Shown: positions 45 to 33,180 of the stretch, piece by piece
How positions within the stretch are numbered: the first letter of the stretch is position 1
How the letters are laid out: each line of letters starts with the position of its first letter
IMG/VR virus record: IMGVR_UViG_3300009506_000019
Coordinates: 1-64,000 of that record
DNA length: 64,000 nucleotides
From: a virus
Direction: 5' to 3' (one strand)
The notes under the pieces: model-generated
Databases searched by the model: none
The model's input: only the letters and a program-made list of their open reading frames with translations
Told to the model about the DNA's origin: nothing
Made by a program: the position numbers and the translations under genes

Positions 45-60
45 CGGCATGCGTCGTGCA
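45..60 (+). promoter_or_regulatory. sigma-54-like promoter P1
   Basis: GG at 46-47 and GC at 58-59 are separated by exactly 10 bases, as CGGCATGCGTCGTGCA. The downstream run resembles the other eleven copies (CATCCTTCTTGGGTGTG). The next gene starts 47 bases further on at 107 after a good ribosome-binding site. Match to the RpoN -24/-12 consensus is by eye. Confidence 0.65.
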
Positions 61-106
61 TCCTTCTTGGGTGTGCGGCGTGTGTCGCGCCTGAAAGGAG
101 AGCACG

Positions 107-346
107 GTGAACCCCATCACACAGCACGCGCAGCTGGCTCGAAGCCAGATGCCGAAAGGAAGCGGACCGCACCACCGGTCCAGAGGCGTGTTCGCGAAGC
201 CGCGAGCACACAACGGCAAGACCCGCCTCTTCACGAACCTGGACATCGTGAGGATGCGCCTGGCCGAAGGCGACAAGGCAGGTGCCCGTCGTCTGCTCGA
301 GGAAATCAAGTCCGGAGCCAAGAAGGCCCTGGCCGTAGCCGAGTAG
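107..346 (+). CDS. small basic protein, unknown
   Basis: A 79-residue protein starting at GTG 107, chosen because AAAGGAGAG lies just upstream. It is rich in Arg and Lys with a Gly/Arg/Lys N-terminal half and a helical, Glu/Lys-rich C-terminal half ending in an Ala-rich segment. I do not recognise a family. It is the first gene after promoter P1 and is probably co-transcribed with the next small basic gene. A nucleic-acid-binding role would fit its charge but is inference. Confidence 0.7.
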   Translation: MNPITQHAQLARSQMPKGSGPHHRSRGVFAKPRAHNGKTRLFTNLDIVRMRLAEGDKAGARRLLEEIKSGAKKALAVAE

Positions 347-373
347 TCCACTCACAAACAGGAGAAAGCAACC

Positions 374-556
374 ATGAACCGTCCGTTTCGAAATCTCGAC
401 CTGGAGCTGCCCGAAGTGTACAAGAAGGCAGCTCAGAAGCGCCGTCGTCAGCTCAACATGGAGGCCAAGAAGATCGCTCCGGGAGCGCCGAGGGTGGCCG
501 TGGCTCGAAACGTGCTTGCGTGGCGTGAGGCGAACAAGCAGCGTCTCGGTCTCTAA
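374..556 (+). CDS. small basic protein, unknown
   Basis: A 60-residue, strongly basic protein with a KRRRQ cluster near residue 24. The ATG at 374 follows AGGAGAAAGCAACC. It ends the short operon that begins at promoter P1; a long gene-free stretch follows. No family recognised; charge suggests binding to nucleic acid or ribosomes, without further evidence. Confidence 0.7.
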   Translation: MNRPFRNLDLELPEVYKKAAQKRRRQLNMEAKKIAPGAPRVAVARNVLAWREANKQRLGL

Positions 557-844
557 ACTGTAAGGTGGTCAGTGGGAACGTATCCCCCTCCTCAGCCGGA
601 TCGTGGGAACGTTCCCACTGACTGCATATTTGTTCAACGAGTATTGTGGTGTCTTGAGGTACGGACATTCAGGGTTGTATTGTCTCGAGCCTCAGACACG
701 GTGTCCGGAGGTCAAGACAGGTAAGGTATCGAGGGTCTTGAGCTGCAGACATGTTCCGTCGTCAAGACAGGGTATGTCTGGAATTCAAGACACTCGGAAT
801 CGAGAGATGTCGTTCCCACGAGACACCAACAAGGAGGCTGTCAG
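557..844. promoter_or_regulatory. gene-free region with clustered inverted and direct repeats
   Basis: There is no convincing gene in these 288 bases. The left part carries inverted repeats of GTGGGAACG/CGTTCCCAC, with a third CGTTCCCAC at 810-818. The right part carries several copies of TCAAGACA or its complement: 651-658, 711-719, 734-741, 761-769 and 785-792. No -24/-12 motif of the kind found elsewhere in the window is present. The region looks like a multi-site regulatory segment upstream of the gene at 845; the binding protein is unknown. Confidence 0.5.
568..622. repeat. nested palindrome GTGGGAACGTTCCCAC and distal arm
   Basis: Positions 603-618 are a perfect 16-base palindrome. In addition, GTCAGTGGGAACG at 568-580 is the exact inverse of CGTTCCCACTGAC at 610-622. 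The right arm can therefore pair either with its neighbour or with the distal arm. This is typical of an operator for a dimeric regulator or of alternative RNA folds. Confidence 0.7.
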
Positions 845-1147
845 ATGAGGCAATTCCGAATCGTCCAAGGAGGTAGAGGCGGGGACTATGAGCCATTTGC
901 CAGGTCAACAGCAACAACAGCCACCATCGACCTGGACATGACCGACCTCCACCAGAAGGTGCGGGAGTTCGAATCCACCGTCAGAGAGGTCATCGAGGGT
1001 GAGAAGCTGACCAAACGCGAATACGAACTCTTCGTCTTCATGGTGGCCCATTTCGCCGACGCCCACGAGATCTACAACGAGGAAATCCACGACGAGTGCT
1101 ATCTGCTCATGGGCAAAATCGAGAGAACCATGGGGAAGGGCAAATGA
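845..1147 (+). CDS. unknown acidic helical protein
   Basis: A 100-residue protein; ATG 845 follows AAGGAGGCTGTCAG. The first 25 residues are polar and the rest looks helical, with alternating charge and a hydrophobic stretch (FVFMVAHF) near residue 63. Not recognised. It is the first gene downstream of the repeat-rich regulatory region and its stop overlaps the start of the next gene (ATGA), so the two are translationally linked. Confidence 0.7.
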   Translation: MRQFRIVQGGRGGDYEPFARSTATTATIDLDMTDLHQKVREFESTVREVIEGEKLTKREYELFVFMVAHFADAHEIYNEEIHDECYLLMGKIERTMGKGK

Positions 1148-1386
1148 GCATCAGGGCAAGCGACCGACTCGTCAACACCGTGCTCCCGGCCGGAGCCAGG
1201 GGACAACCCGCCAAAGGAGCCTACGGATGCCGGAAGGACAGCCGTGGACTCAAAGGATTCTACGAGCCCAAAGGCCACAGAAGAGGCAGGGTCGTAGAGT
1301 ACGTGGGAGAAGCTCTGGTGGAGTGGCTGATGGAGCAGGGGCGATGGGCAGAGGCAGAGGAGCTTCTGGATTCCCTGGGTGATTAG
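1144..1386 (+). CDS. unknown small protein
   Basis: An 80-residue protein starting at ATG 1144, overlapping the previous stop by four bases. It has a Gly/Arg-rich N-terminal half and a helical C-terminal half (around residues 50-78) with regularly spaced Leu and Trp. No family recognised. Confidence 0.65.
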   Translation: MSIRASDRLVNTVLPAGARGQPAKGAYGCRKDSRGLKGFYEPKGHRRGRVVEYVGEALVEWLMEQGRWAEAEELLDSLGD

Positions 1387-1452
1387 GACCAACAGGGGGA
1401 AGGACACCTGCTGGTAGAGAGAGGTATTGTACACTTGAACAAGGAGAGCATC

Positions 1453-1725
1453 ATGAGTCAGGACATCTGGGTTGGAATCCTCGAGTGCCCCGGAGGCTAC
1501 GAGGGAGGGCATACGTGGGTCGTCACGGGAAGTACGTTCGAAGAGGTGGCGAAGCTCCTCTGGGACGAGATGACCGCCGACGACACCAAAATCGCCGATT
1601 GGGAAGGCGTCGAGTGGGATTTCGAGCGCTTCCTGAAGGAGGAGGGCACCTACTGCGACGAGATGAAGACCCGGATTCTGCCCGCGAAGCTGGGGCAGGT
1701 CGTCAAACTCTTCCCGCAGGGCTGA
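1453..1725 (+). CDS. unknown small protein
   Basis: A 90-residue protein. I start it at ATG 1453 after AAGGAGAG rather than at the in-frame TTG 1435, which has no ribosome-binding site. It is acidic and tryptophan-rich (WVGILECP near the N-terminus, WEGVEWDFERF in the middle). Not recognised. The gap before it (1387-1452) has no clear promoter. Confidence 0.7.
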   Translation: MSQDIWVGILECPGGYEGGHTWVVTGSTFEEVAKLLWDEMTADDTKIADWEGVEWDFERFLKEEGTYCDEMKTRILPAKLGQVVKLFPQG

Positions 1726-1728
1726 CAC

Positions 1729-1992
1729 ATGACGTTGAAACAGAAGCTCAAGGACTTCGTGCTGGTAGCCAACGACTACAGCGGGATTGAGTACGGGTTC
1801 AACACCCGAGTCAAGGGCTGGCAGGGGCAGAAGGCCATCGTCACCATCGTGGACCAGGACGACCCGGACACGGAGCAGGACGAAGTGCTATTGTCGTACG
1901 ATGGCGAGAACTACCGTATCGAAAACACGGAAGGCAAACTGCTGGCCACCACCCGATACCCCCGCGTCCTGTTCGCGATTCTGTACACGTAA
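1729..1992 (+). CDS. unknown protein, paralogue candidate of 10084-10386
   Basis: An 87-residue protein starting three bases after the previous stop. Its opening pattern (LKDFV...A.DYSGIEY) and a central DPDT motif recur in the protein at 10084-10386 (LRHFV...AHNYAAVEY and DPET). Both end with a similar LFxxxY sequence. I read them as two diverged copies of one family. Function unknown. Confidence 0.65.
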   Translation: MTLKQKLKDFVLVANDYSGIEYGFNTRVKGWQGQKAIVTIVDQDDPDTEQDEVLLSYDGENYRIENTEGKLLATTRYPRVLFAILYT

Positions 1993-2007
1993 CCAAGGAG
2001 AGCAACC

Positions 2008-2310
2008 ATGAGTTTGAAGGACAAAGTGCTGGTAGAGATCGAGAACCTGCGCGGCAACGCCAGGTTCCCGTCCGTGCTCGACATATGCTACAGCGGCGAG
2101 GCAACCGACTGCGCCAAGCGGCTGGGCGTGGGCCGACACGACACCGAGGAGGTCCTGACCGCCGTGAAACGGCTCCACGAAGACGGAAAGGTCAAATTCG
2201 TCTACCGCTGGGGCTATACCTGGGTGGTGCCGAGCTGGAAGAGCGACATCAAGGACGAAGAGCTGATCCAGAACCCGACTGATCGACCCTACAATTGGGA
2301 GGAGCTATGA
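2008..2310 (+). CDS. putative winged-helix-type small protein
   Basis: A 100-residue protein; ATG 2008 follows AAGGAGAGCAACC. Residues about 30-75 have the rhythm of a winged helix: a helix with ATDCAKRLGVG, a second helix EEVLTAVKRLHEDG, then two strands with KFVYRWGYTWVV. That would make it a DNA-binding regulator, but the match is structural impression only. Its stop overlaps the next start. Confidence 0.6.
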   Translation: MSLKDKVLVEIENLRGNARFPSVLDICYSGEATDCAKRLGVGRHDTEEVLTAVKRLHEDGKVKFVYRWGYTWVVPSWKSDIKDEELIQNPTDRPYNWEEL

Positions 2311-2699
2311 AATCTTCATTGAGGAAGCTCGAGAAGGCCATCAACGCGCTGCTCACGGAGAAGCAGAAACGCGAGATGGCCGAAGATGAGCAGGGAGTCA
2401 TGCTCGTGGACGAAAACAGTCCATGGGAGCACAACCCTGTGCTCTACGTCGGAGACGTGGCCGTGAAGCTGGGCGAGGATGACGACAATCTCCACGTCTG
2501 GACCGAATCGACCAAGGACGCCTACAGACTGTGTTCTCTCGACCCCAATCGGCCGATGGACGAACTGGCGAAGAAGGTCATTCGCTGTCTGAAGGCACCG
2601 TTCCCCTACGGAACCGCAGCAGCCAAGCGGTATCTCGAATGGAAGCGCCAGAATCCGGACATGGACGGATTCACGCCCAAGAAAGGGATTGATTACTGA
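2307..2699 (+). CDS. unknown protein
   Basis: A 130-residue protein. ATG 2307 is chosen because GGAGGAG sits just upstream and it gives an ATGA overlap; a TTG 12 bases earlier is in frame. It begins with a charged helix rich in Lys and Glu, followed by a mixed region. No domain recognised. Confidence 0.65.
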   Translation: MKSSLRKLEKAINALLTEKQKREMAEDEQGVMLVDENSPWEHNPVLYVGDVAVKLGEDDDNLHVWTESTKDAYRLCSLDPNRPMDELAKKVIRCLKAPFPYGTAAAKRYLEWKRQNPDMDGFTPKKGIDY

Positions 2700-2890
2700 T
2701 GAGCAAACACCCACCCAGCAGCACGGAGATTCCGTTTAAGACGCCGAGCTTTTGCTTGAAGGTGATGTGTAGCACATGCAAGAGGGTCATGGGACAGAGC
2801 CAGGGCAAGTGGCGTCGATGCGGCAAGAATCAGGAAATCTTCATCTGTGACGACTGCAGGAGGAAAGACGATGCCAGCTATCGTTATTGA
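2699..2890 (+). CDS. small zinc-ribbon protein
   Basis: A 63-residue protein with two Cys pairs, CSTC near residue 24 and CDDC near residue 51, a layout typical of a zinc ribbon. The spacing of about 25 residues between pairs is normal. It starts on the last base of the previous stop. Partner and role unknown; one of many CxxC mini-proteins in this arm. Confidence 0.65.
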   Translation: MSKHPPSSTEIPFKTPSFCLKVMCSTCKRVMGQSQGKWRRCGKNQEIFICDDCRRKDDASYRY

Positions 2891-4181: not shown

Positions 4182-4192
4182 GGCGTACCATC

Positions 4193-4220
4193 TGGCGAGC
4201 CTTGATCGTGAGGCTCGCCA
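4193..4220 (+). terminator. stem-loop between operons
   Basis: TGGCGAGCC at 4193-4201 pairs with GGCTCGCCA at 4212-4220 across a 10-base loop, a perfect 9-bp GC-rich stem 11 bases after the stop codon. There is no clear U-run after it, so termination is inferred from position between a gene end and promoter P2. Confidence 0.55.
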
Positions 4221-5455: not shown

Positions 5456-5841
5456 GTGAAGATATCATCAGCATGAATACGGACTACTGCGCCAAGTGTG
5501 GCGCAGAACACGACTACATGAGCGGTCCGTGTGAGAAATGCGGTAGCCACGTCTTCACCAAGGAGAAACCGCACAAGACCTACGGTGTCTACAAGTTCTA
5601 CAAGGACGGAGCCTGTAACGACAGCCCGTACATCGCCATCTTCGAAGATGAGGATGACGCAAAAAAGGCGGTAGAGGTGCTGGAAAAGCTGCGGCACGAC
5701 AACCGACGTGACATGGCCTTTGCATGTAACGAGGGTTGGGAATTCCGGTGCTACTGGACCTACGAGGAGGTACCAGCACCCAAGACGTTTGACGAGTTCA
5801 TGACTCACGTAAACGAAACACTGGAGGAGTGTGATGGCTGA
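5452..5841 (+). CDS. zinc-ribbon protein
   Basis: A 129-residue protein with CAKCG at residues 13-17 and CEKCG at 27-31, an N-terminal rubredoxin-like zinc ribbon. The rest has alternating strands and a helix (AKKAVEVLEKL). It may be a protein-protein or nucleic-acid adaptor; no family named. Confidence 0.65.
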   Translation: MSEDIISMNTDYCAKCGAEHDYMSGPCEKCGSHVFTKEKPHKTYGVYKFYKDGACNDSPYIAIFEDEDDAKKAVEVLEKLRHDNRRDMAFACNEGWEFRCYWTYEEVPAPKTFDEFMTHVNETLEECDG

Positions 5842-9799: not shown

Positions 9800-10091
9800 T
9801 CCACAAGAACTCGCCAAGTGGGAACGCTGGGCGAAAAACCACGGATGGCGCTGTCTTGGCAGGGCAGTTGCATACATCCGGAAATTGGAGGGCAACATGA
9901 AGCTTGCATTCAGTCTCAATGAACTCAAAATCATGCACGACACGGTGTGCACCCACGAAGAGATGGCAGGAGACGATCCTGAGAGCTTTGGTGATCAGGG
10001 TGAGTACACCACTCTGCGTAAGAAGCTGAAAGACGCCATCGATCACATCGAGAAAGAAGCAGTCATACAGGCCGAGGTAGCCGATGGCTGA
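9786..10091 (+). CDS. unknown helical protein, two possible starts
   Basis: A 101-residue reading frame from GTG 9786, preceded by GAGGAAATAAG. A second in-frame ATG at 9898 has a better signal (GGAGGGCAAC) and would give 64 residues. The N-terminal part is basic and Trp-rich (KWERWAKNHGWR); the C-terminal part is helical and acidic. No family recognised. Overlaps NADAR upstream and the next gene downstream. Confidence 0.55.
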   Translation: MRKPDPQELAKWERWAKNHGWRCLGRAVAYIRKLEGNMKLAFSLNELKIMHDTVCTHEEMAGDDPESFGDQGEYTTLRKKLKDAIDHIEKEAVIQAEVADG

Positions 10092-10924: not shown

Positions 10925-11464
10925 ATGGCAAAGATCAAGATCAGTGCGCTGGCAGACAGGCTCAGCATGGACCCGAAGGCCGTCATCGCCAAGCTGGCAG
11001 AAGCTGGCATCCAGGCGAAACGACGCGACAGCTCAGTCGATGAGACCGCCGCTCTCGCGGCTCTCGGAACGGCACCCGCTTCAGCTCCGGCCGAGCAGGG
11101 AGCGGAGGTGGTGAGCCTGGACCAGGCACGCGAAAAGAAGGCATCGAAACCGAAGAAGGAAAAGACGCCGAAAAAGCCGAAGTCCGACAGCGACGATTGG
11201 TACAAGAAGTACCCGTGGGTCGTGAAGGGCAGCGTGCGCGAGCCGACCTCAGCCGACCGCAAGGCTCTGGGCTCGCGATGTCACGGCAAGGTGTGCACCG
11301 TCCGATGCGTGGACAGCGGAGTGGAGCGCGTGGTCAACACGCAGGACGCTTTTCAGTCCAAACGCTGCCCGGACGCGCAAAAGGCGTACATGCGTCGCCG
11401 ACGTGCCGAGCGCCGTCAGGCCCGCAAGGATGCCAAGGCAGCCAAGAAAGCCAATCACAGCTAG
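10925..11464 (+). CDS. basic protein with IF2-N-like domain; paralogue of 21581-21937
   Basis: A 179-residue, very basic protein in its own promoter-terminator unit. Residues 1-28 (KIKISALADRLSMDPKAVIA) resemble the small N-terminal helical domain of translation factor IF2. A Lys/Pro-rich linker follows at about 65-90. The C-terminal part (YKKYPWVVKGSVRE, CHGKVCTVRCVDSG, NTQDAF) is clearly the same domain as in the gene at 21581, with a basic Arg/Ala-rich tail. The domain has no name I know. Ribosome or nucleic-acid binding is inference. ATG 10925 follows ACGAGGAGATGACAACC. Confidence 0.75.
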   Translation: MAKIKISALADRLSMDPKAVIAKLAEAGIQAKRRDSSVDETAALAALGTAPASAPAEQGAEVVSLDQAREKKASKPKKEKTPKKPKSDSDDWYKKYPWVVKGSVREPTSADRKALGSRCHGKVCTVRCVDSGVERVVNTQDAFQSKRCPDAQKAYMRRRRAERRQARKDAKAAKKANHS

Positions 11465-13521: not shown

Positions 13522-13854
13522 GTGAAAACAGTGCTATTCGTAGACGATGAAGTTCCAATCCTGTATGCCATCAAACGCAACATGAAGGTCCATAGGGATC
13601 AAATCCGATGCCTGTTCACTTGTGACGTGGACACTGCCATCTATCTTGTTGATCAAGTTGACATGGTAGTAACCGACTGGACAATGCCGGGTGGCAGTGG
13701 ACGAGACGTAGTGGATAAGTGCAAACAGATGAACGTGCCAGTCATCGTGAGTAGTGGCGATGACCTCACCATCGATGTGCCGCACATAAAAAAGCCATGC
13801 ATAGCGCAGATTCCAGACGCTGTGGCACGTGCTCTGCATCTCTTGGATCTATAG
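13522..13854 (+). CDS. stand-alone response-regulator receiver domain (CheY-like)
   Basis: A 110-residue protein that is a complete receiver domain and nothing else. Strand 1 VLFVDDE with acidic Asp8/Asp9, phosphoacceptor Asp52 in VVTDWTMPGGSG, the switch Ser in VIVSSGD (77-78) and the conserved Lys in HIKKP (90-91) are all present. It is short for the family because the last helix is trimmed. It has no output domain, so it would work by protein contact or as a phosphate sink for host histidine kinases. GTG 13522 start. Receiver proteins are rare in phages. Confidence 0.85.
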   Translation: MKTVLFVDDEVPILYAIKRNMKVHRDQIRCLFTCDVDTAIYLVDQVDMVVTDWTMPGGSGRDVVDKCKQMNVPVIVSSGDDLTIDVPHIKKPCIAQIPDAVARALHLLDL

Positions 13855-17850: not shown

Positions 17851-18190
17851 AGCAACGGGCAAGGACTTCTTCTTCGATTGGGGAAGCGGCAGATGTCCAC
17901 GCCTTTGTATGGCAGTGAATGGCGACCGCATGTGTTCCCGCTACATCACACCACGCCTAACTGGCGGGAAAATGTTACAGTGGCTGGAATCCTTCGAGGC
18001 AGGACTAGCACACAGTGGCGCAAACAAAATGCGTGACGCTCTCAACAGTGCACCTCCACCACCATCCATCACGGACCAGTCACCACGCACAGCAGAGCTA
18101 TTGCTGCAGTGGATGGCTGAATACAGGGATTGGTACGACAAGCGAGGTGAAGCGCTGTCTTTCCGGTCTCACAATGAGGTCACTCTTTAG
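17801..18190 (+). CDS. unknown protein
   Basis: A 129-residue protein; ATG 17801 follows GGAGCAAAACG. It has a basic helix at the N-terminus, a CPRLC pair near residue 32, and helical C-terminal half with a Pro-rich turn. Last + strand gene of the left arm; its end overlaps the convergent - strand gene by 11 bases. Confidence 0.6.
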   Translation: MRVARSTLEQKIQKLTEATGKDFFFDWGSGRCPRLCMAVNGDRMCSRYITPRLTGGKMLQWLESFEAGLAHSGANKMRDALNSAPPPPSITDQSPRTAELLLQWMAEYRDWYDKRGEALSFRSHNEVTL

Positions 18191-18683
18191 GCTGAATGTA
18201 AACCTCACCAGTTGACTGCACATGTTGCATTATGCTGTCAAAAGAGGGAGGTTTAGCAGCTTTCTTCGGTTTCTTGTCAAACTCTTTTTCTTCGCCAGAG
18301 TCTGACTCGTCGAGTGGTGCGGGGACAGCCAGCGCAGCTGGTACTCTCCCACCACTTCGACGCACTCCTCTCAAATACCCCTTCAATTCAGCTATCTCCA
18401 GCTTCAGAGCAATTACTTCATCAGAATAAGATTTGATGTTACCGCTCATCTCTTCCACGGTAGAAGCCAGATTCTCATAAGAACTTCGCTGAACCAGTGC
18501 CGCAGTGCTTCTTTCTCTATAATCCAGATAGGTATTTACCAAAACACCAGGAACAGCAGTTAATGCAGCAATAAGAGCTGCTACTCCCGCCCAATTGATT
18601 GGCTTCTTCTTTGGCTCTTCACACTCATCACAATCTTCGTCAGAATCATGAGTGTGAACATGAGTTGTGCGATGTGGGGTCAT
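18180..18683 (-). CDS. single-pass membrane protein with coiled coil
   Basis: A 167-residue protein. The N-terminus has a His-rich stretch and CDEC; one membrane segment lies at about 30-51 (WAGVAALIAALTAVPGVLVN), followed by a coiled-coil-like region to about residue 105 and a charged Lys/Pro tail. The N-in membrane segment plus periplasmic coiled coil recalls an inner-membrane spanin, but no lysis gene is beside it, so this is only a possibility. Last gene of a four-gene - strand island. Confidence 0.6.
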   Translation of the reverse strand: MTPHRTTHVHTHDSDEDCDECEEPKKKPINWAGVAALIAALTAVPGVLVNTYLDYRERSTAALVQRSSYENLASTVEEMSGNIKSYSDEVIALKLEIAELKGYLRGVRRSGGRVPAALAVPAPLDESDSGEEKEFDKKPKKAAKPPSFDSIMQHVQSTGEVYIQPKE

Positions 18684-19081
18684 GGTCCGAATTTCTTGGT
18701 CCTAGCAGACAGATTTACAATAACAGCCTGCCTACGCATGTTTTGTTGACGAATTAGCGCCATCTCGAGCTGCTCAACTGTAAGCTGAGTATGTCTTACT
18801 AGGTACTCACCCAGCATTTCCCCTTTCGACATCTTGAATTCTTTTACCATTCTCTCCAAATCGTTATAGTTAATAAAACCCATTTGAATTAGAATATTAC
18901 CAATACTGGATGGATCATCCTCTGGACGCACACCATTAACTCCTGGAGTTAATGACTGTCGCTGCTCAAGTTCCACAGACAGTTGCTCAGCTGCTGATAT
19001 GAATTCCTTACTCATGGTTGTGATTTTATCTAGCATCATCTTGATGGAATTAGTCTGGTCCAACTCACACTTAGGGTTAGC
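18680..19081 (-). CDS. GspE-N/MshEN-like domain protein
   Basis: A 133-residue protein. I start at the internal ATG (19081), which overlaps the upstream stop and has GGGGAAG before it. The C-terminal half (IGNILIQMGFINYNDLERMV, then MLGEYLVRHTQLTVEQLEMA) has the double 'G..L...G.I....L' repeat typical of the N-terminal domain of type II secretion/pilus ATPases (MshEN), which in some cases binds cyclic di-GMP. There is no ATPase. Whether it binds a nucleotide is unknown. Confidence 0.55.
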   Translation of the reverse strand, partial: ANPKCELDQTNSIKMMLDKITTMSKEFISAAEQLSVELEQRQSLTPGVNGVRPEDDPSSIGNILIQMGFINYNDLERMVKEFKMSKGEMLGEYLVRHTQLTVEQLEMALIRQQNMRRQAVIVNLSARTKKFGP

Positions 19082-19514
19082 CATTTTCTTCCCCATCATC
19101 TTCGACATCAACAACTTGTAACTTGCTTCGCATCTCTTCCATCATATTTTTTATACTAGCAATCGATCTGTAAGCGTCAATAGTTCGCCTACGATCACGT
19201 CTATCCGTCAGGTTCTGAGCCATCAGGATAAGAGGAGATGCAAAAGCTGCTTGAAAGGACAAAACTAGATTAAGCAGGATAAATGGGTATGGATCCCATC
19301 CGGTCACCAGCATTACTGCATTAGCTGCTACCCAGAACGACAGGATAACAGACTGAAGGATAATAAATCTCCAACTACCAATAAACCCAACTACTTTGGT
19401 AGCCACCTTCTCACCAACAGTAGCATCGAGACCATCACCGTAACGAAGATTCTCAATCTCCTCCAGGATGTTCTTTTGTGTCTCAATGATGGTTTTCAGA
19501 TCGGAGTTCGTCAT
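19077..19514 (-). CDS. DUF1003 membrane protein
   Basis: A 145-residue protein from ATG 19514. It matches DUF1003 well: GSWRFIILQ at 46-54, WVAANAVML, WDPYPFILLNLVLSFQAA at 73-90, SPLILMAQNLTDRRDRRR at 93-110. Two membrane segments lie at about 48-70 and 77-99. Bacterial members are inner-membrane proteins of unknown function. The N-terminal 40 residues are helical and acidic. A hairpin at 19570-19586 separates it from the large gene upstream. Confidence 0.75.
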   Translation of the reverse strand: MTNSDLKTIIETQKNILEEIENLRYGDGLDATVGEKVATKVVGFIGSWRFIILQSVILSFWVAANAVMLVTGWDPYPFILLNLVLSFQAAFASPLILMAQNLTDRRDRRRTIDAYRSIASIKNMMEEMRSKLQVVDVEDDGEENG

Positions 19515-19569
19515 TGCACTTCCATTAACTCTATGCGCAGTTGCTGATAGTAGTTGAGAACACCGACCT

Positions 19570-19586
19570 CCTAACGTCAAGTTAGG
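19570..19586 (-). terminator. small stem-loop between - strand genes
   Basis: CCTAAC (19570-19575) and GTTAGG (19581-19586) form a 6-bp stem with a 5-base loop in the gap between the 603-aa gene and the DUF1003 gene. On the - strand the right arm reads into AGGAGG, so it could also hide a ribosome-binding site. No U-run; weak evidence. Confidence 0.35.
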
Positions 19587-19627
19587 CAGCGATGCCACTA
19601 CTGACAAACACGCTACCATCTCTTATT

Positions 19628-21439
19628 TTACAGGTCAGTCATCGACACCACAATGCGCCCTGCCTTGCTGGCCTGTACACCTAATTCCAGATCAGAAGGA
19701 GTCTCGAGTGAAAGCTCTTCTTCGCGCTCTCCCTCTTCTTCCCCTTCCATTCTTTCCTTTTCTTCTTCGATGTTATGCAGGAATACTTCTACAGCGTCAA
19801 CTGCCAGAACATCAGCATTGGGGGCTTCCGGGTCGATGTTTTGGATGGTATAGTCAAGCTCGTCCACATTTTGCTCGTACATACGTACAACTTCTTTGAG
19901 CTTGGCCAATTCGTCTGTATCCTTGGCTCCCATCTTTGGCTTGGGTGGAAGCTTGGTGCCCTTTGGTAGTCCGGCACGTTCTAGCTCCCTCTGCTTACGT
20001 CTTTCCTTTCTGGACTGAGCCAACTCTTCCTTCGTCTTTTTCGGCTTAGGTGCCTTTTTCGATTTAGGGCTAGCTTGAGCAACACGAACACCGACAGACT
20101 TCCAGTATTCGTTCCACTCCCTCATACCTTCAGCCATGTCGTCAACAACAACCATGGCTTGTCTAATCATAACCGCAACATGCTCAGTCATGGGCTGAAC
20201 TTCATAGTTACCCAATGACTCTTCAAATCGACGCAGGCCAGCCTCATCCCACAACCCAAGACGTTCCAGTTTCTCCATACGAACATCATACTTGTCACCA
20301 CTCTTGGTAACCAAGTATGTACGCTTCATGTCTGAACTATAAACCGATACAGTACCGTAATGTTCGAGTGCCTGACCAAGTTTACCTGGTAGACCAGGCT
20401 CATAGGTCGGCATGCCAGGCTCTGCTGGCGCTGCTGGCGTTGGTTGTGTGGTTATAGTTTGAGTTGGCGTGTCGGTCTGTGCAGCTTTGGCAATGTGCCG
20501 CTCATCGTCAGCAGAACCAGACGCTACACCACCAATACCACCAGTTTGAGATCCGGTTGGGCCGACGTAATCGGATTTCGGCTTATCAGAGATTTCTGGC
20601 TCAAAGACATCACCAGCCTCTTTGTCCCCGCCACCTTCTCTCATTTCTTGTTCTACGAATTCTTCTACACCCTCCAACCCCTGTGGTGTATGATCGGTGT
20701 CTTCGTCTTCTTCTTGTTCGATGAATTCCTCTAGTGTGGGACCAGCAGCGCCCTTGTCACCTTCAACCCCGTGCTCTTCGTGTTCCTCATGTTCTTCTTC
20801 GAGAAACTCAGTCATACCAGGTGGAGTTGAAGTCTTTCCACCACCATCAAGTCCCACATCCAATGAGCCTGGTGTGAGGACTAGCACCGTGCCAGTCGCC
20901 ACCTTGCCGTGGACTGGTAGCCGCACCTTGCAACCAACCTTCAACTCCACACCAAAACGGTCTGTGACGGCTACGGAGCTTTCTTTCTTGATAGGCTCAG
21001 GGTCATACCCGAGCACATGATCTTCACCATGCTTGCGGGTCAGAACAAAGCCACCCTCACCAGGCACCATCTCCCACAGATGGTGACCCTCACGGAAAAA
21101 GCCAGTGCCAATTCTTTCAAACTGGCTTGGTATATCAGTAAGACTTGCCACGACAATGCGCTTGGTGGTATTATCGTCATTGCTTACTTTTTGTGCAATC
21201 TTTTTGATTGAGGCGGTCTTCTGATGCTTGGATGCACGCTTTTCTCCGGCACGGCTTACGCCGTCCTTAATACGACGAATGGAATTATCGTCAAGCGTGC
21301 TGGTACCTTGCTGACTGACCCTATTGGCATTCATACGATGCATTTCGATACTCCCAATCTCCGGAGTCTGCGTTCTACTGCTACCGAATAGTCCATTAAG
21401 CATGAATATTGGTAACATTCTGTTCAACCCAATCTCCAT
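19628..21439 (-). CDS. 603-aa low-complexity protein, unknown
   Basis: The largest unknown protein of the window. Order of parts: polar N-terminus; a compact segment with FFREGHHLWEMVPGEGGFVL near 113; a KVGCKVRLPVHGKVATGTV beta segment near 168, like a small SH3-type barrel; a long acidic Glu/Gly/Pro-rich stretch (about 205-330); a folded part around 350-450; a Lys/Pro linker; and a coiled-coil acidic C-terminus. It may be a scaffold or virion-associated protein, but nothing proves it. Start at 21439 with GAGG upstream; divergent from promoter P8. Confidence 0.65.
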   Translation of the reverse strand: MEIGLNRMLPIFMLNGLFGSSRTQTPEIGSIEMHRMNANRVSQQGTSTLDDNSIRRIKDGVSRAGEKRASKHQKTASIKKIAQKVSNDDNTTKRIVVASLTDIPSQFERIGTGFFREGHHLWEMVPGEGGFVLTRKHGEDHVLGYDPEPIKKESSVAVTDRFGVELKVGCKVRLPVHGKVATGTVLVLTPGSLDVGLDGGGKTSTPPGMTEFLEEEHEEHEEHGVEGDKGAAGPTLEEFIEQEEDEDTDHTPQGLEGVEEFVEQEMREGGGDKEAGDVFEPEISDKPKSDYVGPTGSQTGGIGGVASGSADDERHIAKAAQTDTPTQTITTQPTPAAPAEPGMPTYEPGLPGKLGQALEHYGTVSVYSSDMKRTYLVTKSGDKYDVRMEKLERLGLWDEAGLRRFEESLGNYEVQPMTEHVAVMIRQAMVVVDDMAEGMREWNEYWKSVGVRVAQASPKSKKAPKPKKTKEELAQSRKERRKQRELERAGLPKGTKLPPKPKMGAKDTDELAKLKEVVRMYEQNVDELDYTIQNIDPEAPNADVLAVDAVEVFLHNIEEEKERMEGEEEGEREEELSLETPSDLELGVQASKAGRIVVSMTDL

Positions 21440-21580: not shown

Positions 21581-21937
21581 ATGGGTGGTAAGAAAAAGTC
21601 CAAACTTCGTGTTGTGAAGGGTGGCAAGAACGACAAGAAGGCCGCGCCGAAGAAGAAGTTCGACGAGGAAGCCTTCTACAAGAAGTACAAGCATGTCGTT
21701 CCTGGGTCCGTCAAGGAGGCAAAGCCTGGCTCTGTTGTGGACGGCTGCAAGGTCGCACATGGTCGCATCTGCAAGATCAAGTGCAAAGAGACCGGCAAGC
21801 TCCGCACCATCAACGTGCAGGATGCCTTTCAAACCTTCTTCACCGCCGAGGTGCAGAAGCGCAAGCAACTCGAGCGTGCAGCCGAGCGCCGCAAGAAGAG
21901 CGGCAAGAAGGCACGTCGCAAGAGCAAAGCAGGCTGA
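21581..21937 (+). CDS. basic protein, paralogue of 10925-11464
   Basis: A 118-residue, extremely Lys/Arg-rich protein. After a basic leader, residues 30-85 (FYKKYKHVVPGSVKEAKPGS, CKVAHGRICKIKCKETG, INVQDAF) align with the C-terminal domain of the protein at 10925, including the two Cys-containing strands and the QDAF motif; the rest is a basic Ala/Lys/Arg tail. It lacks the IF2-N-like part. Like its paralogue it stands alone between a sigma-54-like promoter and a strong terminator, suggesting high expression. Nucleic-acid binding inferred from charge. Confidence 0.75.
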   Translation: MGGKKKSKLRVVKGGKNDKKAAPKKKFDEEAFYKKYKHVVPGSVKEAKPGSVVDGCKVAHGRICKIKCKETGKLRTINVQDAFQTFFTAEVQKRKQLERAAERRKKSGKKARRKSKAG

Positions 21938-22064: not shown

Positions 22065-22979
22065 ATGACAAATGACATCCAATCCGCACTGGCAAGTGGT
22101 TCGCGAAAGATCGGTTTTCTCACATGGTACGACTGTCGCAATGCGAGCGTCACACCCACCAAGCTGAAGGCTCTCTTCGACAAGCATGGTCTCGATGAGT
22201 CCCATTTCCCGGATACCATCAAACCGAAGAATGCTTTCCAGAAGGCTTGCCGCAAGGCGATGGCCGAGACGAGCACAAGCAGCGACACACGCCGCTCCAT
22301 CACCAAGCTCATCGTCGATGGTCTGGACAAGATCATCTACGGTGTCGTGGATTTGAATGTTCACGAGAAGGCGGAGTCCATCGACCCCGATTTCAGCGAT
22401 AAGGTGTGGCTCGACAAGAACACACTCAGCGTCGGATTCGACAAGGGACACGACCTGTCCCGCAATGTGAAGAAGATCTTCGACCAGCTCTGTGGTGAAT
22501 ACACGACACGCGACATCAGCCGCATGATCGTAAAGTCTCTCGACCACATGGCGTCTGTCTCCCTCCGTGATGCTGGCGTCATCTACTTCGTGCCTGTCGG
22601 CTTCGAAAAAGATCTGCTCGCTCTACAGGGAGTGGTGAACGACGTGGGCGAGTGCAATATGAGAGTTTTTGCGCTGGGCTCCAGCGATGGGAACTCGGCC
22701 GGAATCGAGAATGCTGCAAAAAGCCAGATTGCAGACAAGATCGATGCGATGAAGGAAGACATCGCAGACTTGAAAGAATCCATCGAGTCTGGTACCGTCA
22801 AGGGTAAGACGGTGGACAACAGTATCGAAGTCCGTCGCAAGAGGTTCAATGAGCTGAAGATGCGATGTCAAGTGTTGGCCGATGCTCTCAAAATCAAGGC
22901 CGACACGCTCGAAGGGAATCTGGGCGAGGTTGAGGACCTCATCAACAAGGAACTGGAAGAGTTCGTCGGCGCTGCGTGA
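22065..22979 (+). CDS. unknown protein of the MoxR/VWA gene group
   Basis: A 304-residue protein. ATG 22065 follows ACAGGAGGCTCTATC. The N-terminal 80 residues (GFLTWYDCRNASVTPTKLKA) look like a small alpha/beta domain; a central folded part follows; the last 80 residues form a coiled coil. It opens the operon region that also carries the MoxR ATPase, so it may be a regulator or substrate of that module. I do not recognise a named family. Confidence 0.7.
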   Translation: MTNDIQSALASGSRKIGFLTWYDCRNASVTPTKLKALFDKHGLDESHFPDTIKPKNAFQKACRKAMAETSTSSDTRRSITKLIVDGLDKIIYGVVDLNVHEKAESIDPDFSDKVWLDKNTLSVGFDKGHDLSRNVKKIFDQLCGEYTTRDISRMIVKSLDHMASVSLRDAGVIYFVPVGFEKDLLALQGVVNDVGECNMRVFALGSSDGNSAGIENAAKSQIADKIDAMKEDIADLKESIESGTVKGKTVDNSIEVRRKRFNELKMRCQVLADALKIKADTLEGNLGEVEDLINKELEEFVGAA

Positions 22980-23681: not shown

Positions 23682-23728
23682 TTCTTGTATGGTAGGCAAC
23701 TCACACCTACCCTGTATTGGAGACAACC

Positions 23729-24841
23729 ATGAGCACTGATTATCGCGGAAAGATTTCGCAGAACATCGACGAGCTGCAAAGCCGATTCTTTGAGAGGGAC
23801 CATATCATCCTCTCGGCATGGGCAGCTCTACTCTCTCGCAACCACATGCTGCAGCTTGGCGTCCCTGGCACAGCCAAATCGATGTTGACACAAGCAATGT
23901 GTGCAAGCATCAGCGGCTCACGCTACTTCGAACGTCTGCTGACCAAATTCTCCCCTCCAGAGGAGCTGTTTGGACCTACCAGCATGAAGGGGCTCGAAAA
24001 CGACGAGTATCGTCGTATCACCACAAAGATGCTGCCGGAAGTGGAGATCGCGTTCATCGACGAAATCTTCAAGGCCAATGCATCAATTCTCAACAGCCTG
24101 CTAACCATCATCAACGAGCGCGAATTTGACAACGGCACTGACCGTACAAAGGTGCCGCTCATCTCTCTGTTCGGAGCAAGCAACGAACTCCCACAAGAAG
24201 AGGAATTGGAGGCTCTGTACGATCGCTTCCTTCTTCGCTTCGACGTGCCGTATATCCAAGACGGCAGCAATTGGGAAGCCTTGATGCTGATGGATGATGA
24301 CGACCTGGTAGTCGAAAACACCATCACGTTGAAGGAATTGCAAGCAGCACAAGCAGAAGTCCGCAAGGTCACACTGTCTCCCGCCACCGTCAAGACCATG
24401 CGCGAAATCAAGATGCGCTTGGAGCGGCAGGGTGTCATCGCCAGCGACAGACGATGGAAGCAGACGGTGCGTGTGCTCAAGGCATGGGCTTGGCTGCACG
24501 GCCGCGATGAGGTAGTGACTCAGGACCTGAGCCTGTTGTGCGACATGATGTGGCGCGACCCAGGCCAACGTCCCATCGTCGTGCAGGAAGTCTTGGCCGT
24601 CACCAATCCGCTGGACCTGGCTGCCACCGAGATCTACGACACCGTGAACGATGTCTACTCCAAGTGGGACCCGAAAGATTCGGCATCCACGGAAGAGACC
24701 GCTGCCAAGATCCGGCTTGCCATGGAGAAACTGGATCACACCATCAAGACCGGCAAGGAAGAAATGCTGGGCAAGACTCGTGAGGTCCGCAACATCATGG
24801 CGATGTGGTACAAGGAAGTCCTCAAGTCAATGGATTTGTGA
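23729..24841 (+). CDS. MoxR-family AAA+ ATPase
   Basis: A 370-residue AAA+ ATPase. Walker A GVPGTAKS at 44-51, Walker B IAFIDE at 107-112, sensor 1 GASNE at 149-153 and an arginine-containing DRFLLR at 165-170 are all in the MoxR/RavA pattern. MoxR ATPases form hexamers and work as chaperones together with a VWA protein. The partner is encoded at 26372. It lacks the GAFTGA loop of sigma-54 activators, so it is not the activator of the promoters found here. ATG 23729 is chosen over one 12 bases earlier. Confidence 0.9.
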   Translation: MSTDYRGKISQNIDELQSRFFERDHIILSAWAALLSRNHMLQLGVPGTAKSMLTQAMCASISGSRYFERLLTKFSPPEELFGPTSMKGLENDEYRRITTKMLPEVEIAFIDEIFKANASILNSLLTIINEREFDNGTDRTKVPLISLFGASNELPQEEELEALYDRFLLRFDVPYIQDGSNWEALMLMDDDDLVVENTITLKELQAAQAEVRKVTLSPATVKTMREIKMRLERQGVIASDRRWKQTVRVLKAWAWLHGRDEVVTQDLSLLCDMMWRDPGQRPIVVQEVLAVTNPLDLAATEIYDTVNDVYSKWDPKDSASTEETAAKIRLAMEKLDHTIKTGKEEMLGKTREVRNIMAMWYKEVLKSMDL

Positions 24842-25833: not shown

Positions 25834-25909
25834 GCTCCCATAGAACAATGGTTAGTTCACCGGGCTTTCAATCCGGGCACAGTGGGTTCGATTCCCCTTG
25901 GGAGCACCA
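25834..25909 (+). tRNA. tRNA-Glu (UUC)
   Basis: A 76-base cloverleaf with encoded CCA: acceptor GCTCCCA/TGGGAGC, D arm GAAC/GTTC, anticodon stem CCGGG/TCCGG with loop CTTTCAA (anticodon TTC, codons GAA/GAG), T loop TTCGATT. One T-C mismatch lies in the T stem. It is embedded in the + strand operon, one base after a stop codon. It would help translate the many glutamate-rich phage proteins. Confidence 0.9.
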
Positions 25910-26371: not shown

Positions 26372-27736
26372 ATGATTATCACCAACCTAGATGCATGGGA
26401 TCGCCGCGAATTCCTCGATTGCATGCAGTACGACCAGAAGCTGAAAGATGTCGAAATCGACGGGAGCAAGCGACAGCCCAACTTCGCAGAATTCATGATC
26501 GATATCTTTGGTGGGCTTTACAAGTACGAGCCCAAGCTGCGTGAAGAGGATCAGAAAATCGCTGGCACGGAGTGGATGGACGAGATCTACAATGAGATCT
26601 CCCAGCTCCAAGAATGGAAGACGCTACGCGAGCGCACGCGCATGAACGGTGGTGCCTCGGCCGAAGCCACGGCTGAGTTTTGTCTCCAATTCATGGACCA
26701 GGTGCCAAAGCCACCAAAAAAGAATCAGCAGCAGCAACCACAACCACAGCAACAAGGACAGCCGCAGCAAGGCGGTGGTGCTGGCAACCAGCCCAAGCCA
26801 CCAGGGCTCGACATGTCCAAGATTCGCCAAGCTGCACGCAATGCATGCAAAAAGGCGACCGAGGCAGCAGACCGACACAACAGCATGATGTCTGCTTTCG
26901 GTCAGGGCAATGAAACAGGCATTCGACAAACTACCGCTCCTGGTCTGAAGAAGCAGCTGGCCGAAAAGCTCGTTAACAACGAGCACCTTCGCAAGATTGC
27001 AGAACTGGCCGGTCGTATGAAGAGACTCGCCATCCAAAAGCAGAAATCCAAGACTCGGTATGGGACCGATGAAATCGCCAACATCACAGTGGGCGACGAA
27101 TTGTCTCGTCTCGTGCCATCAGAGATTGCCAAACTCTCACATCCCGTCCTGAAGAAGGACTTCTTCAAGCGATACCTGGAAAAGAGCCTGCTCCAGTATC
27201 AACTACGCGGACGCGAGAAAGAAGGACGCGGACCGCTCATCGTCTGCATCGACGAATCCGGCACCATGAGTGGACAACGGGACATCTGGGCCAAAGCCGT
27301 AGCTATGGCTCTACTCCACATCGCACAGCGTCAGAAGCGCCGCTATTTCATGATCCATTATGACTCCAATGTGACCAGGACCGACGAGTTTTTTGGAACT
27401 GCCGATCCTCTGGAGATCATTGACGCAATTTCCCACTACACTGCTGGTGGAACCGAATTTGAAGAGCCACTGAACATGGCGCTTCAGATGATCAACAAGG
27501 GAAAGGAAACCGGATACAAGAAAGCCGACATCGTATTCATCACAGATGGACAAGCTACCGTATCAGACCAATTCCTACAGATCTTCAACATGGGAAAGAA
27601 GGTAGCCAACTTCCAGGTTATCGGCGTGGCCATTGATTGCCGCGATGTGGAGACACTCAAGAAGTTCTCCGATCAGCTGATTCACGTTTGGGGTGGACGC
27701 GACGATGAAGCCCTGAACATCATGTTCGACGTATAG
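26372..27736 (+). CDS. VWA-domain protein, partner of the MoxR ATPase
   Basis: A 454-residue protein. N-terminal helical region, a Gln/Pro low-complexity linker at about 113-145, a second helical part, and a C-terminal von Willebrand A domain from about 287: MIDAS motif DESGTMS at 294-300, Thr361 in AGGTEFEEP and Asp392 in ITDGQ complete the metal site. The layout matches CoxE/ViaA-type partners of MoxR ATPases, which work together to remodel or insert metal into targets. It has its own promoter (P11). Confidence 0.85.
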   Translation: MIITNLDAWDRREFLDCMQYDQKLKDVEIDGSKRQPNFAEFMIDIFGGLYKYEPKLREEDQKIAGTEWMDEIYNEISQLQEWKTLRERTRMNGGASAEATAEFCLQFMDQVPKPPKKNQQQQPQPQQQGQPQQGGGAGNQPKPPGLDMSKIRQAARNACKKATEAADRHNSMMSAFGQGNETGIRQTTAPGLKKQLAEKLVNNEHLRKIAELAGRMKRLAIQKQKSKTRYGTDEIANITVGDELSRLVPSEIAKLSHPVLKKDFFKRYLEKSLLQYQLRGREKEGRGPLIVCIDESGTMSGQRDIWAKAVAMALLHIAQRQKRRYFMIHYDSNVTRTDEFFGTADPLEIIDAISHYTAGGTEFEEPLNMALQMINKGKETGYKKADIVFITDGQATVSDQFLQIFNMGKKVANFQVIGVAIDCRDVETLKKFSDQLIHVWGGRDDEALNIMFDV

Positions 27737-30124: not shown

Positions 30125-30461
30125 CCCTGTTGTCCTTCTGAGGGAAATTGTTATAGCTGTTGACGATGGCTACTTTGGCCACGACCCATACTATAAAGAC
30201 ATAAAGGAAGTATACATGAACAAGGCAATAGAATTGTCTGGTGGAGAGCTGACGATCTGTATGGAACGTCTTTTGAACGATATTGATTGTTCAGGTGACG
30301 GCCACGTACAGATGGTGAATTACAACAAAGCCACAATTCAGGGCCTTCTTGATCGTGGGCTTATCACCCTACTCATGCACCGAAAACACGGCCCACATGA
30401 TGGTAAGGTTATCCGCCGTCGCAGAAACAAGGAATATCAAAACCCACAACTCAACAGGTGA
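30081..30461 (+). CDS. unknown protein
   Basis: A 126-residue protein. ATG 30081 has GAGG six bases upstream; ATG 30078 is directly before it. Helical, with a basic C-terminus (KVIRRRRNKEYQ). It overlaps the previous frame by 44 bases. Not recognised. Confidence 0.6.
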   Translation: MDDNQWKAKIQAITDPVVLLREIVIAVDDGYFGHDPYYKDIKEVYMNKAIELSGGELTICMERLLNDIDCSGDGHVQMVNYNKATIQGLLDRGLITLLMHRKHGPHDGKVIRRRRNKEYQNPQLNR

Positions 30462-30464
30462 CAT

Positions 30465-30797
30465 ATGGCAGACAAAAACGAAACCTATAGCGTGCCAGGA
30501 CAGTTGGCTGTCGCCTTGCAGAGTGGACGTGGACAATTCGTCCAGCTCTACATGGCTGAAATCGACAAAGGCATCGAAATTCCAAGAGAACAACTCAAGG
30601 AAATCGTGCGCCTTGTTGGTGACATGATCGAAGACAACCGCCAACTTCGACACGAGAACCAAGTGCTGCGTAGCCTCATCAGCGACACCAAGGTGGAGCT
30701 GAAAGAACAACTCGATCACATCGAGTTCGCAAGGAACGAAGCACGCAAGACATTGCGTGAGATGCAGCAACAAATCGACGAACTGGACGAAGACTGA
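30465..30797 (+). CDS. coiled-coil protein
   Basis: A 110-residue protein, helical from about residue 35 on with a long coiled coil (LRHENQVLRSLISDTKVELK, continuing to the end). Acidic. Probably an oligomer or adaptor. It ends on the first base of the next gene. Confidence 0.65.
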   Translation: MADKNETYSVPGQLAVALQSGRGQFVQLYMAEIDKGIEIPREQLKEIVRLVGDMIEDNRQLRHENQVLRSLISDTKVELKEQLDHIEFARNEARKTLREMQQQIDELDED

Positions 30798-31273
30798 TGC
30801 CAAGACGATATGCGCAAAACACAGCCACGCCAATCGCACGTAGCCGTGGAGAGATCACCAAACTTCTCCAAGATTGGGGTGCGACGGCTATTCAATGGAC
30901 CGACGAATTCGAAGCGGACAAGTGTACGCTCCGGTTCATGTGGAAGCATGATGACACGGAGTACCTTGCACGCATCTCTATTGGCCTTCCTGGTCGAGAT
31001 GAGCTTGAAGAGGAAGCCTGGCACGGTGGCTTGAAACGTGTACATGAGGGGAAGCTCAAGAAACTCATGTCTGGACGTGGAAAACAAGAACATCGACTCT
31101 TGCTCCTGTGGATCAAAGCCGCACTAAACGCGGTAGATGCAGGCATGGTTTCTGCCGAAGCCATCTTCCTTCCATTCTTTGAAGACCAACAGGGCAACAC
31201 TGTAGCCGAAATTGCTGTTCCCAAGTTGGCCAAGTTGCGGTCTGGGTCCGCAATGAAACTGCTGACATCATGA
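30797..31273 (+). CDS. conserved-looking phage protein of unknown function
   Basis: A 158-residue protein. The N-terminal part (RYAQNTATPIARSRGEITKL, then LLQDWGATAIQW, CTLRFMW and ISIGLP) has the layout of a family I have seen as unnamed in many phages: 'RSR.EI..LL..yGA' followed by a strand and a Pro. No activity is known. TGATG overlap with the previous gene. Confidence 0.7.
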   Translation: MPRRYAQNTATPIARSRGEITKLLQDWGATAIQWTDEFEADKCTLRFMWKHDDTEYLARISIGLPGRDELEEEAWHGGLKRVHEGKLKKLMSGRGKQEHRLLLLWIKAALNAVDAGMVSAEAIFLPFFEDQQGNTVAEIAVPKLAKLRSGSAMKLLTS

Positions 31274-31464
31274 AGTGGAAGATGCTGCCACGAGGATACA
31301 ACAGACGTTGTGTTGCTCTGGACAGTGACGGCAAACGCTGCAGAAAGAAAGCCACCTGGAAAGGCGAATACCACGGTGATGGCGAAATCTACACGTATTT
31401 CGACAACGCGCCACAGTGGGTCCAGGTAGAAATGTGTAACGAACACGCGAGCAAGTGTAAATGA
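31270..31464 (+). CDS. small Cys/His protein
   Basis: A 64-residue protein with Cys at CVALDSDGKRC and a C-terminal CNEHASKC, a spacing seen in small zinc-binding phage proteins. Basic. ATGA overlaps on both sides. Function unknown. Confidence 0.6.
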   Translation: MKWKMLPRGYNRRCVALDSDGKRCRKKATWKGEYHGDGEIYTYFDNAPQWVQVEMCNEHASKCK

Positions 31465-31640
31465 GTCAATTCGAAAACAAACTTGAGGTTGAAAAAATCG
31501 AAGACGGACAGTGTTTCTCTTGCAACAGAGAAGGACGAGTCACCCGCATTCGAACCAAAAACACCAACTACTCTATGAGATCCATGTGTCTGTGCTACAA
31601 ATGCCTGGCGTGGTTGAAGGGGAAACTACGTGGCTTTTGA
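31461..31640 (+). CDS. small zinc-ribbon protein (59 aa)
   Basis: Reads from ATG 31461 (ATGA overlap with the gene before) to TGA 31638-31640. CFSC near residue 18 and CLCYKC near residue 43 form zinc-ribbon pairs, and the end is basic. It is easily missed because it is under 60 residues. It fills the gap before the helicase gene and its last bases overlap the helicase GTG. Confidence 0.6.
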   Translation: MSQFENKLEVEKIEDGQCFSCNREGRVTRIRTKNTNYSMRSMCLCYKCLAWLKGKLRGF

Positions 31641-33180
31641 TGGTACGGGTTATGCATCTTTTTATGGTAGTATGAAGTATCAGCTAAGACCATACCAACA
31701 AGAGGCGGTAGAACGCTTACGAGATTCGTACCGTAACCGCAACCAGCGTGTGGTTCTAGTCTCACCAACTGGATCTGGCAAGACCGTTATCGCATCAAAC
31801 ATCATTGAACGGGCCACCATGAAAAACGGTGGTCGCGTGCTCTTCATAGCTCATCGCCGAGAGATTATCGATCAGACCAGCAAAAAGCTGGCTGAAATCG
31901 GTATACCACATGGCGTCATGATGGGTGATGATGGTCGAAGAGACCCTAATGCACCTGTCCAAGTGGCCAGCATCCAGACTCTAATTCGGCGAGAGCTTCC
32001 ACCTACCGACTTCATCATCATAGACGAGTGCCATCTGTCTCTGGCCGTATCATACCAGAAGGTAATGTGCCACTATGAGGACACACCAATCCTGGGTCTG
32101 ACGGCCACTCCGTGGCGCACGGACGGCCAGGGGCTTGGCCGGATTTATGAAGACATGGTGATGGTGTCCCAGGTAAAGGAACTGGTCAGAAAAGGCTACC
32201 TTCTTGCCCCGGAGATCTTTGCCCCGTTTCGTCCCGATCTGTCCAGTGTTAGGATAAAACTCGGTGACTACGTAGCATCGGACCTATCCATGGTCATGAA
32301 TAAGAGTCACCTGATTGGTAGCATCGTCACTCACTGGAAAAAATATGCACAAGGTATGGCTACTGTTGCATTTGCAGCATCACGGAAGCACAGCAAGCAC
32401 ATAGTACAGAATTTCCTTGACGCTGGAATTCCAGCTGCACATCTAGACCATGCTACCCCCAAAGACGAACGCGAGTCTATTCTACAACAATTGGCTGTTG
32501 GAAGTCTAAAGGTAGTATCCAACGTTGGCATTCTAACTGAAGGGTGGGATCTTCCACAGCTTGAATGCCTCATTATGGCAAGACCAACAATGTCAGAGAC
32601 GCTCTACCTACAAATGGTGGGGCGTGTGATGCGCACCATAGAAGGTAAAACTAGAGCTTTGGTGCTAGACCATGCTGGTTGCTTCTTCAGACACAACTCA
32701 CCCATCGTCGATCGTGATTACTCACTCGATGATAGGGTACAAGAACGCAAAGGTAAAAAATTCGGCAAAAGACACATCAAAATCTGCCCAGACTGTCACC
32801 GTGTCTGTGCAGCTAATAATGTTACGTGTCCTGTGTGTGGATTCAATTTCGATGCAGGGAGAGTCCCAGAAGAAATACCTGGCCAACTGGTTAGGATCAG
32901 AGAAGAATATGTGCCATCATGCAAAAATTGTGGCCAACAATCACTACGACGAGCAAATAGAGGCTACATATCAGAAAACGCAATAGAATATAGATGCGCG
33001 GCGTGTAGAATGCCAAATATTCTGGCCACCACCAAATTGCGAGACCTAGATCAGGCACAACGACACAGGGAATTTTGGAAGTTGAAAACATACGGAATTA
33101 GCAAAGGATACAAGCCGCAGTGGGCCGAATTCAGCTACACAGAACTGTTCGGCATAACACCAAAACAGGACAACTTCTAA
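31630..33180 (+). CDS. SF2 DNA/RNA helicase with zinc-ribbon tail
   Basis: A 516-residue helicase from GTG 31630 (AAGGGG upstream); ATG 31672, giving a 502-residue form beginning just before LRPYQQEAV, is an alternative. Motif I SPTGSGKT at 45-52, motif II DECH at 132-135, motif III TATPWR at 158-163, then motifs V and VI (GWDLPQ, QMVGRVMR). After about residue 390, four Cys pairs (CPDCHRVC, CPVCG, CKNCG, CAAC) form one or two zinc ribbons. Similar proteins remodel branched or R-loop DNA. Substrate not known. Confidence 0.85.
   Translation: MAFDGTGYASFYGSMKYQLRPYQQEAVERLRDSYRNRNQRVVLVSPTGSGKTVIASNIIERATMKNGGRVLFIAHRREIIDQTSKKLAEIGIPHGVMMGDDGRRDPNAPVQVASIQTLIRRELPPTDFIIIDECHLSLAVSYQKVMCHYEDTPILGLTATPWRTDGQGLGRIYEDMVMVSQVKELVRKGYLLAPEIFAPFRPDLSSVRIKLGDYVASDLSMVMNKSHLIGSIVTHWKKYAQGMATVAFAASRKHSKHIVQNFLDAGIPAAHLDHATPKDERESILQQLAVGSLKVVSNVGILTEGWDLPQLECLIMARPTMSETLYLQMVGRVMRTIEGKTRALVLDHAGCFFRHNSPIVDRDYSLDDRVQERKGKKFGKRHIKICPDCHRVCAANNVTCPVCGFNFDAGRVPEEIPGQLVRIREEYVPSCKNCGQQSLRRANRGYISENAIEYRCAACRMPNILATTKLRDLDQAQRHREFWKLKTYGISKGYKPQWAEFSYTELFGITPKQDNF
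31641..31656 (+). promoter_or_regulatory. sigma-54-like promoter P12 (within gene start)
   Basis: TGGTACGGGTTATGCA, GG at 31642-31643 and GC at 31654-31655, followed by TCTTTTTATGGT. It lies inside the helicase reading frame if GTG 31630 is the start, but upstream if ATG 31672 is used, which would leave an almost leaderless mRNA. This makes it the least certain copy besides P2. Confidence 0.45.

Follow-up and report, generated by a model that had tools for sequence, protein, structure and literature searches.

Predicted sigma-54-type promoters ahead of a gene block in an uncultured phage, and their recurrence in related and unrelated phages

When a short sequence recurs in front of gene after gene of a phage, it should be asked what reads it. 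This question is raised by the first 64,000 bases (the window) of IMG/VR record IMGVR_UViG_3300009506_000019, a 166,061-base record of an uncultured phage, in which a first-pass annotation had recognised twelve plus-strand sites of the form TGGCACG-N4-nTGCAT and likened them to the -24/-12 promoters of sigma-54 (RpoN). Judged by sequence, our analysis gives good support to the sites as predicted promoters of sigma-54 type, and we put at about 0.72 the probability that they are used by the RpoN-containing RNA polymerase of the host. The sigma-54 reading is adopted because of the position, orientation and core of the sites, their conservation in relatives and their recurrence in unrelated phages, while a host reader is favoured because no polymerase, sigma-54 or sigma-54 activator encoded by the phage was detected.

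All twelve sites (P1 to P12 in Table 1) are present where the annotation had placed them, with TGCAT in every one and GG-N10-GC in eleven, P2 having GA-N10-GC as described; the count itself was true but incomplete, an exact thirteenth site (13823-13839) having been overlooked. Outside the window, a divergent pair of sites, 85014 (minus) and 85036 (plus), lies between the genes g117 and g118. Read from -26, the sites consist of T/C-G-G-C-A-C/T-G, five variable bases and an invariant T-G-C-A-T; the T-rich stretch said to follow the core is seen from -10 to -1, and then comes a conserved G-T at the predicted +1. As had also been claimed, the sites are mostly placed before a ribosome-binding site (RBS): in 13 of the 14 on the plus strand (13 in the promoter-served block of Table 1, and 85036) a pair of RBS and start codon follows 16-113 nt past the predicted start. 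The exception is P12, where the helicase ATG is only 5 nt downstream, and either the gene is nearly leaderless or the site could be coding.

Could such a series be residual or due to chance? Plain mismatch counting might suggest so, since a consensus search with up to three mismatches gave 66 matches against 64.7 expected, which is not significant and uninformative, and the series has weaker members (21442, 5709). Against this, four kinds of test agree, based on the weight matrix, scrambled consensuses, de novo discovery and the relatives. A weight matrix of the twelve sites over 28 positions, scanned through the whole 166-kb phage, found its twelve best places all on the plus strand and in the first 32 kb; the highest score in 15 simulated genomes was 24.3 bits, and site 13823, outside the training set of the first matrix, scored 25.4. 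Of the 13 sites, 9 stayed above this shuffle maximum under leave-one-out scoring, the scores of 22005 and 26327 being inflated because both are identical over 28 bases, and four fell below it (4233, 17.0; 16949, 15.2; 21442, 7.3; 23666, 20.3). With up to one mismatch allowed, the core is met 16 times, whereas second-order simulations yield 3.7 copies and scrambled consensuses 2.2 +/- 1.8. De novo motif discovery in the upstream regions of the plus strand returned the same motif, CTGGCACG.c.ccTGCAT, at 275 bits against a shuffled maximum of 221, and for the remaining 133 kb, searched upstream of the minus-strand genes, it found no motif above the shuffles. Nothing comparable to the 13-site set with the divergent pair was found elsewhere in the genome or in the shuffles, and for the set taken together chance is refuted, its probability being negligible in our estimate.

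The consensus published for 186 sigma-54 promoters is mrNrYTGGCACG-N4-TTGCWNNw (quoted in PMC2725144). The match to it that had been claimed finds support in five phage site sets, where GG is kept at 93-100% and TGC at 100%; in four of the five the region from -10 to -1 is AT-rich. The two dinucleotides ten bases apart are thus present in the context TGGCACG-N4-TTGCW, apart from the T at -15.

About 30 related records were gathered by capsid and terminase searches. Two of them, G006 (177,941 bases) and G010 (160,708 bases, 160,000 of them scanned), have gene order in common with this phage at a protein identity of roughly 25-84%, and these two and a third relative, C128, keep the GG-N10-GC core with different flanking bases. 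Sites of the same core, with TGCAC/A or TGCAA replacing TGCAT, are enriched in G006 and G010, and 6 of 10 and 11 of 19, respectively, lie within 150 bases of a start, against a background of 0.09-0.10. C128 is a contig of the metagenome-assembled genome (MAG) bin JANXME01 in which eleven genes of this phage have homologues, including replication genes and g115, the putative sigma factor gene considered below; its 14 sites with one mismatch or none all lie on the same strand, mostly as canonical TTGCA. Another contig of that bin, C351, which is phage-like by PHROGs, carries a similar series. A separate candidate was met in the relative G025 (137,165 bases; L080-L086), where the exact 17-base repeat TGGCACGCGAAGTGAAG occurs at about 17 places on the minus strand between 16576 and 50435, shortly before start codons; it was rejected as a sigma-54-type site and is taken for a different, start-associated signal, because it has no GC at -12 and abuts the start codons.

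Beyond the family, a canonical site with AGGAGG behind it was looked for in 2.9 million IMG/VR contigs, and 60 stretches were found. Since the contigs were selected for one site, our statement is limited to the extra ones: in the 35 non-redundant loci there are 58 of these, where scrambled consensuses give 5.0 +/- 2.7, a tenfold excess, and in counts over whole records the motif likewise exceeds the reversed pattern. Almost none of these loci has proteins in common with this phage, G006 or G010. Series of sites stand before RBSs, for example in the groups L175/L183/L192 and L151/L155/L164/L193; the clusters L165 and L174, dense and on both strands, may be something else. The motif with its downstream part included was discarded as a probe across IMG/VR, where it met only chance matches in the coding sequence of other phages. 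DNA comparison found no isolated phage with the same sites, and there is no site in Myxococcus phage Mx8.

Which molecule would then read the sites? The absence of an AAA+ activator noted for the window extends to the whole phage: Sigma54_activat was found neither there nor in the rest, and a search of the complete genome met no Sigma54_DBD and no GAFTGA motif. The only related AAA+ protein (23717-24841) is of MoxR type without a GAFTGA loop. PF04552, PF00158, PF00940 and PF00562 have no match in the phage, the PF00940 search being one without a positive control, and RNA_pol, Rpb2_6 and related profiles gave no match in the genome for an RNA polymerase, single-subunit or multisubunit. As its alternative the first-pass annotation had offered a similar site read by a polymerase or sigma factor of the phage. 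On the side of the polymerase this is therefore weakened, also by the recurrence of the core in unrelated phages, yet it keeps a candidate in g115. A phage RNA polymerase of unrecognised type would suit the conservation from -26 to +2, which resembles that of phage polymerase promoters; apart from the searches just given, however, the position of the GT start shifts by 1-2 bases from one relative to another (read by eye), and the match of unrelated phages to a host consensus would become a coincidence, so that we consider such an enzyme very unlikely. The long conserved stretch, together with a palindrome, GGCACGTGCC, in two sites, could also be explained if the sites were operators bound by a regulator of the phage, or some other positional signal over ordinary promoters. 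However, the palindrome is not kept at the other sites, and the strict orientation, the fixed GG-N10-GC and the placement before starts are promoter-like, which makes this explanation decidedly improbable.

In the main rival explanation the sites are recognised by g115 and would then form a phage-encoded regulon mimicking sigma-54 promoters. The g115 product, a plausible sigma-70-type factor, has a helical N-terminus, a zinc ribbon and a C-terminal helix-turn-helix, and no Pfam match; the model has a pLDDT of 69, and its top fold matches among PDB and viral models are mostly sigma factors, at E > 0.02 and none significant. An earlier fold from three sequences was too poor to be used, and profile comparison gave no link with gp118, the sigma factor of phage PaBG, of which g115 had been tried as a relative. 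In favour of the rival, g115 is found in all four related motif-bearing phages and was not found in the motif-free relatives tested, and the motif is present at its operon. A site precedes the gene or its operon in each of the four, which we count for the sigma-54 reading: besides the divergent pair of this phage, G006 keeps such a pair at the orthologous place (97746-/97788+), G010 has a site (153358, minus) directly before the g115 orthologue, and C128 has an exact site 107 bases before it, within the preceding gene. Against the rival, sigma-70-type factors read -35/-10 boxes 16-18 bases apart and not GG-N10-GC, and the motif keeps its core although the C-terminal, DNA-contacting helix of g115 is variable (TMIANKIRR, TFVASRMSR, TLSSRRIQT). 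Moreover the motif is common to unrelated phages, and the co-occurrence concerns four related phages, with several of the motif-free relatives being fragments. Recognition by g115 thus seems unlikely to us. A late promoter that g115 might use was also sought on the minus strand, where de novo search found no motif. As for further factors of this kind, G010 encodes two Sigma70_r2 proteins (72691 and 117660, plus) besides the g115 orthologue.

Several observations weigh against a host RpoN as the reader. The T at -15 of TTGC is avoided in this phage (7%), and the flanks are conserved down to +2, more than at most sigma-54 promoters. The 300 bases upstream of the sites hold no common activator motif and no excess of inverted repeats; some sigma-54 activators work without upstream binding sites. 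The motif is not seen in the relatives G012, G002 and G022 or in Virus Rctr197k. The only MAG with relatives, JANXME01, is labelled as Actinomycetes, which are mostly without sigma-54, and no Sigma54_DBD was found in the 2.0 Mb of the bin scanned; this label is unsafe as host evidence, because the bin has several phage contigs and looks mixed.

If host RpoN is the reader, its holoenzyme would form a closed complex at each site, to be opened by a bacterial enhancer-binding protein of the host, and transcription would start at the G about 12 bases past the -12 GC. In this way the 32-kb block, with its small genes for takeover and accessory functions, would be switched on and, via the divergent pair, the g115 operon, after which g115, as we infer, would redirect the host polymerase to other phage genes. 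This cascade, from host RpoN to the block and g115 and from there to g115-directed genes, is preferred because the helix of g115 varies, the core is constant and the sites have sigma-54 geometry. The phage would thus couple a gene set to the RpoN signal of its host; the nitrogen or stress timing proposed earlier is speculation.

The usual teaching is that phages rely on the housekeeping sigma factor of the host, on sigma factors of their own or on their own polymerases. If our reading is true, infection is tied to an alternative sigma factor unable to start transcription without an ATP-driven activator, and the phage gets a direct readout of host physiology, be it nitrogen, carbon, envelope stress or development. 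It would also be a clue to host range, as such phages should infect RpoN-dependent bacteria, and it poses a testable question, namely which host activator serves. In a wider sense, we give slightly better than even odds to host sigma-54 being a recurrent phage strategy, in which many unrelated uncultured phages put gene blocks under RpoN promoters, and in this lineage their own putative sigma factor as well, so that the progress of infection depends on the activator signal of the host. The RpoN promoter consensus is well known; a phage regulon apparently built on it was not found described in open-access full text, a coverage outside which most subscription papers and preprints fall.

The features are collected in Table 1. 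The genes of the first 33 kb are mostly small and mostly on the plus strand, and nearly all the remaining ones are on the minus strand; the window encodes tail, capsid, portal, terminase, DnaE-type DNA polymerase, primase-helicase, RecA, ribonucleotide reductase and NAD ligase. Within the block lies a tRNA-Glu (ttc) at 25834-25909 (plus). The MoxR-type gene has an apparent VWA partner, also on the plus strand, with one promoter before each; the partner is assigned as a probable VWA-domain protein because VWA and CoxE domains were found among the block proteins, and such a pair seems unusual for a phage. Three paralogues share a VPGSV...C..C...QDAF domain (10925-11464 and 21581-21937 in the window, 85106-85765 in the genome), each directly behind a sigma-54-type site and one with an IF2 N-terminal domain; in C128 a homologue adjoins the g115 orthologue. 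At 34023-35369 (minus) there is a phage protein with the N-terminal, ribosome-binding domain of trigger factor, with homologues in G006 and G010.

Table 1. Predicted promoters and associated features (positions of the record; the window is 1-64,000)
Feature	Position	Strand	Remarks
Promoter-served block of mainly small plus-strand genes	45-33180	+	minus-strand insert 18180-21439
P1, CGGCATGCGTCGTGCATCCTTCTTGGGT	45-72	+	predicted +1 at 71
P2	4233-4260	+	GA-N10-GC variant
Candidate site, weak	5709-5736	+	GA-N10-GC, within open frame
P3	6634-6661	+	
P4	8272-8299	+	
Candidate site, weaker	9857-9884	+	core 10/11, downstream part divergent; RBS and ATG 9897 downstream
P5	10842-10869	+	upstream of gene at 10925
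Additional promoter, TGGCACGTGCTCTGCATCTCTTGGATCT	13823-13850	+	predicted start to ATG 13865, 16 nt
P6	16470-16497	+	
P7	16949-16976	+	weaker; overlaps 3' end of preceding gene
P8	21442-21469	+	good core, divergent downstream part; leave-one-out 7.3 bits
P9	22005-22032	+	upstream of DUF6744 gene 22065-22979
P10	23666-23693	+	upstream of MoxR-type AAA+ gene 23717-24841 (ATG probably 23729)
P11	26327-26354	+	upstream of gene 26372-27736 (probable VWA-domain protein); 28 bases identical to P9
P12	31641-31668	+	upstream of helicase gene; ATG about 31672
g115, putative sigma-70-type factor	83300-84205	-	

Compared with known systems, the sites are like bacterial sigma-54 promoters, for example those of the Geobacter sulfurreducens regulon, in GG-N10-GC, TGGCACG-N4-nTGCA, the AT-rich region from -10 to -1 and the purine about 12 bases past the GC, and RpoN is reported to be essential in that species (PMC2725144). 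They differ in that about 15 of them lie in a phage genome, with no recognisable activator sites and with the T at -15 avoided. The jumbo phages PaBG, which encodes an unusual sigma-70 factor, and Lu11 (PMC7412058), as well as Virus Rctr197k, have a terminase lineage homologous to that of this phage. Unlike this phage, none of Lu11, PaBG and Rctr197k shows a clear excess of the motif. T4 and SPO1 run their regulons via the host sigma-70 polymerase with phage-encoded sigma factors or appropriators. Similar promoters in one gene block are a feature in common with T4 and SPO1, and here the phage sigma factor probably acts downstream; unlike in those phages, the first layer would be transcribed with sigma-54, an alternative sigma factor of the host that depends on an ATP-driven activator.

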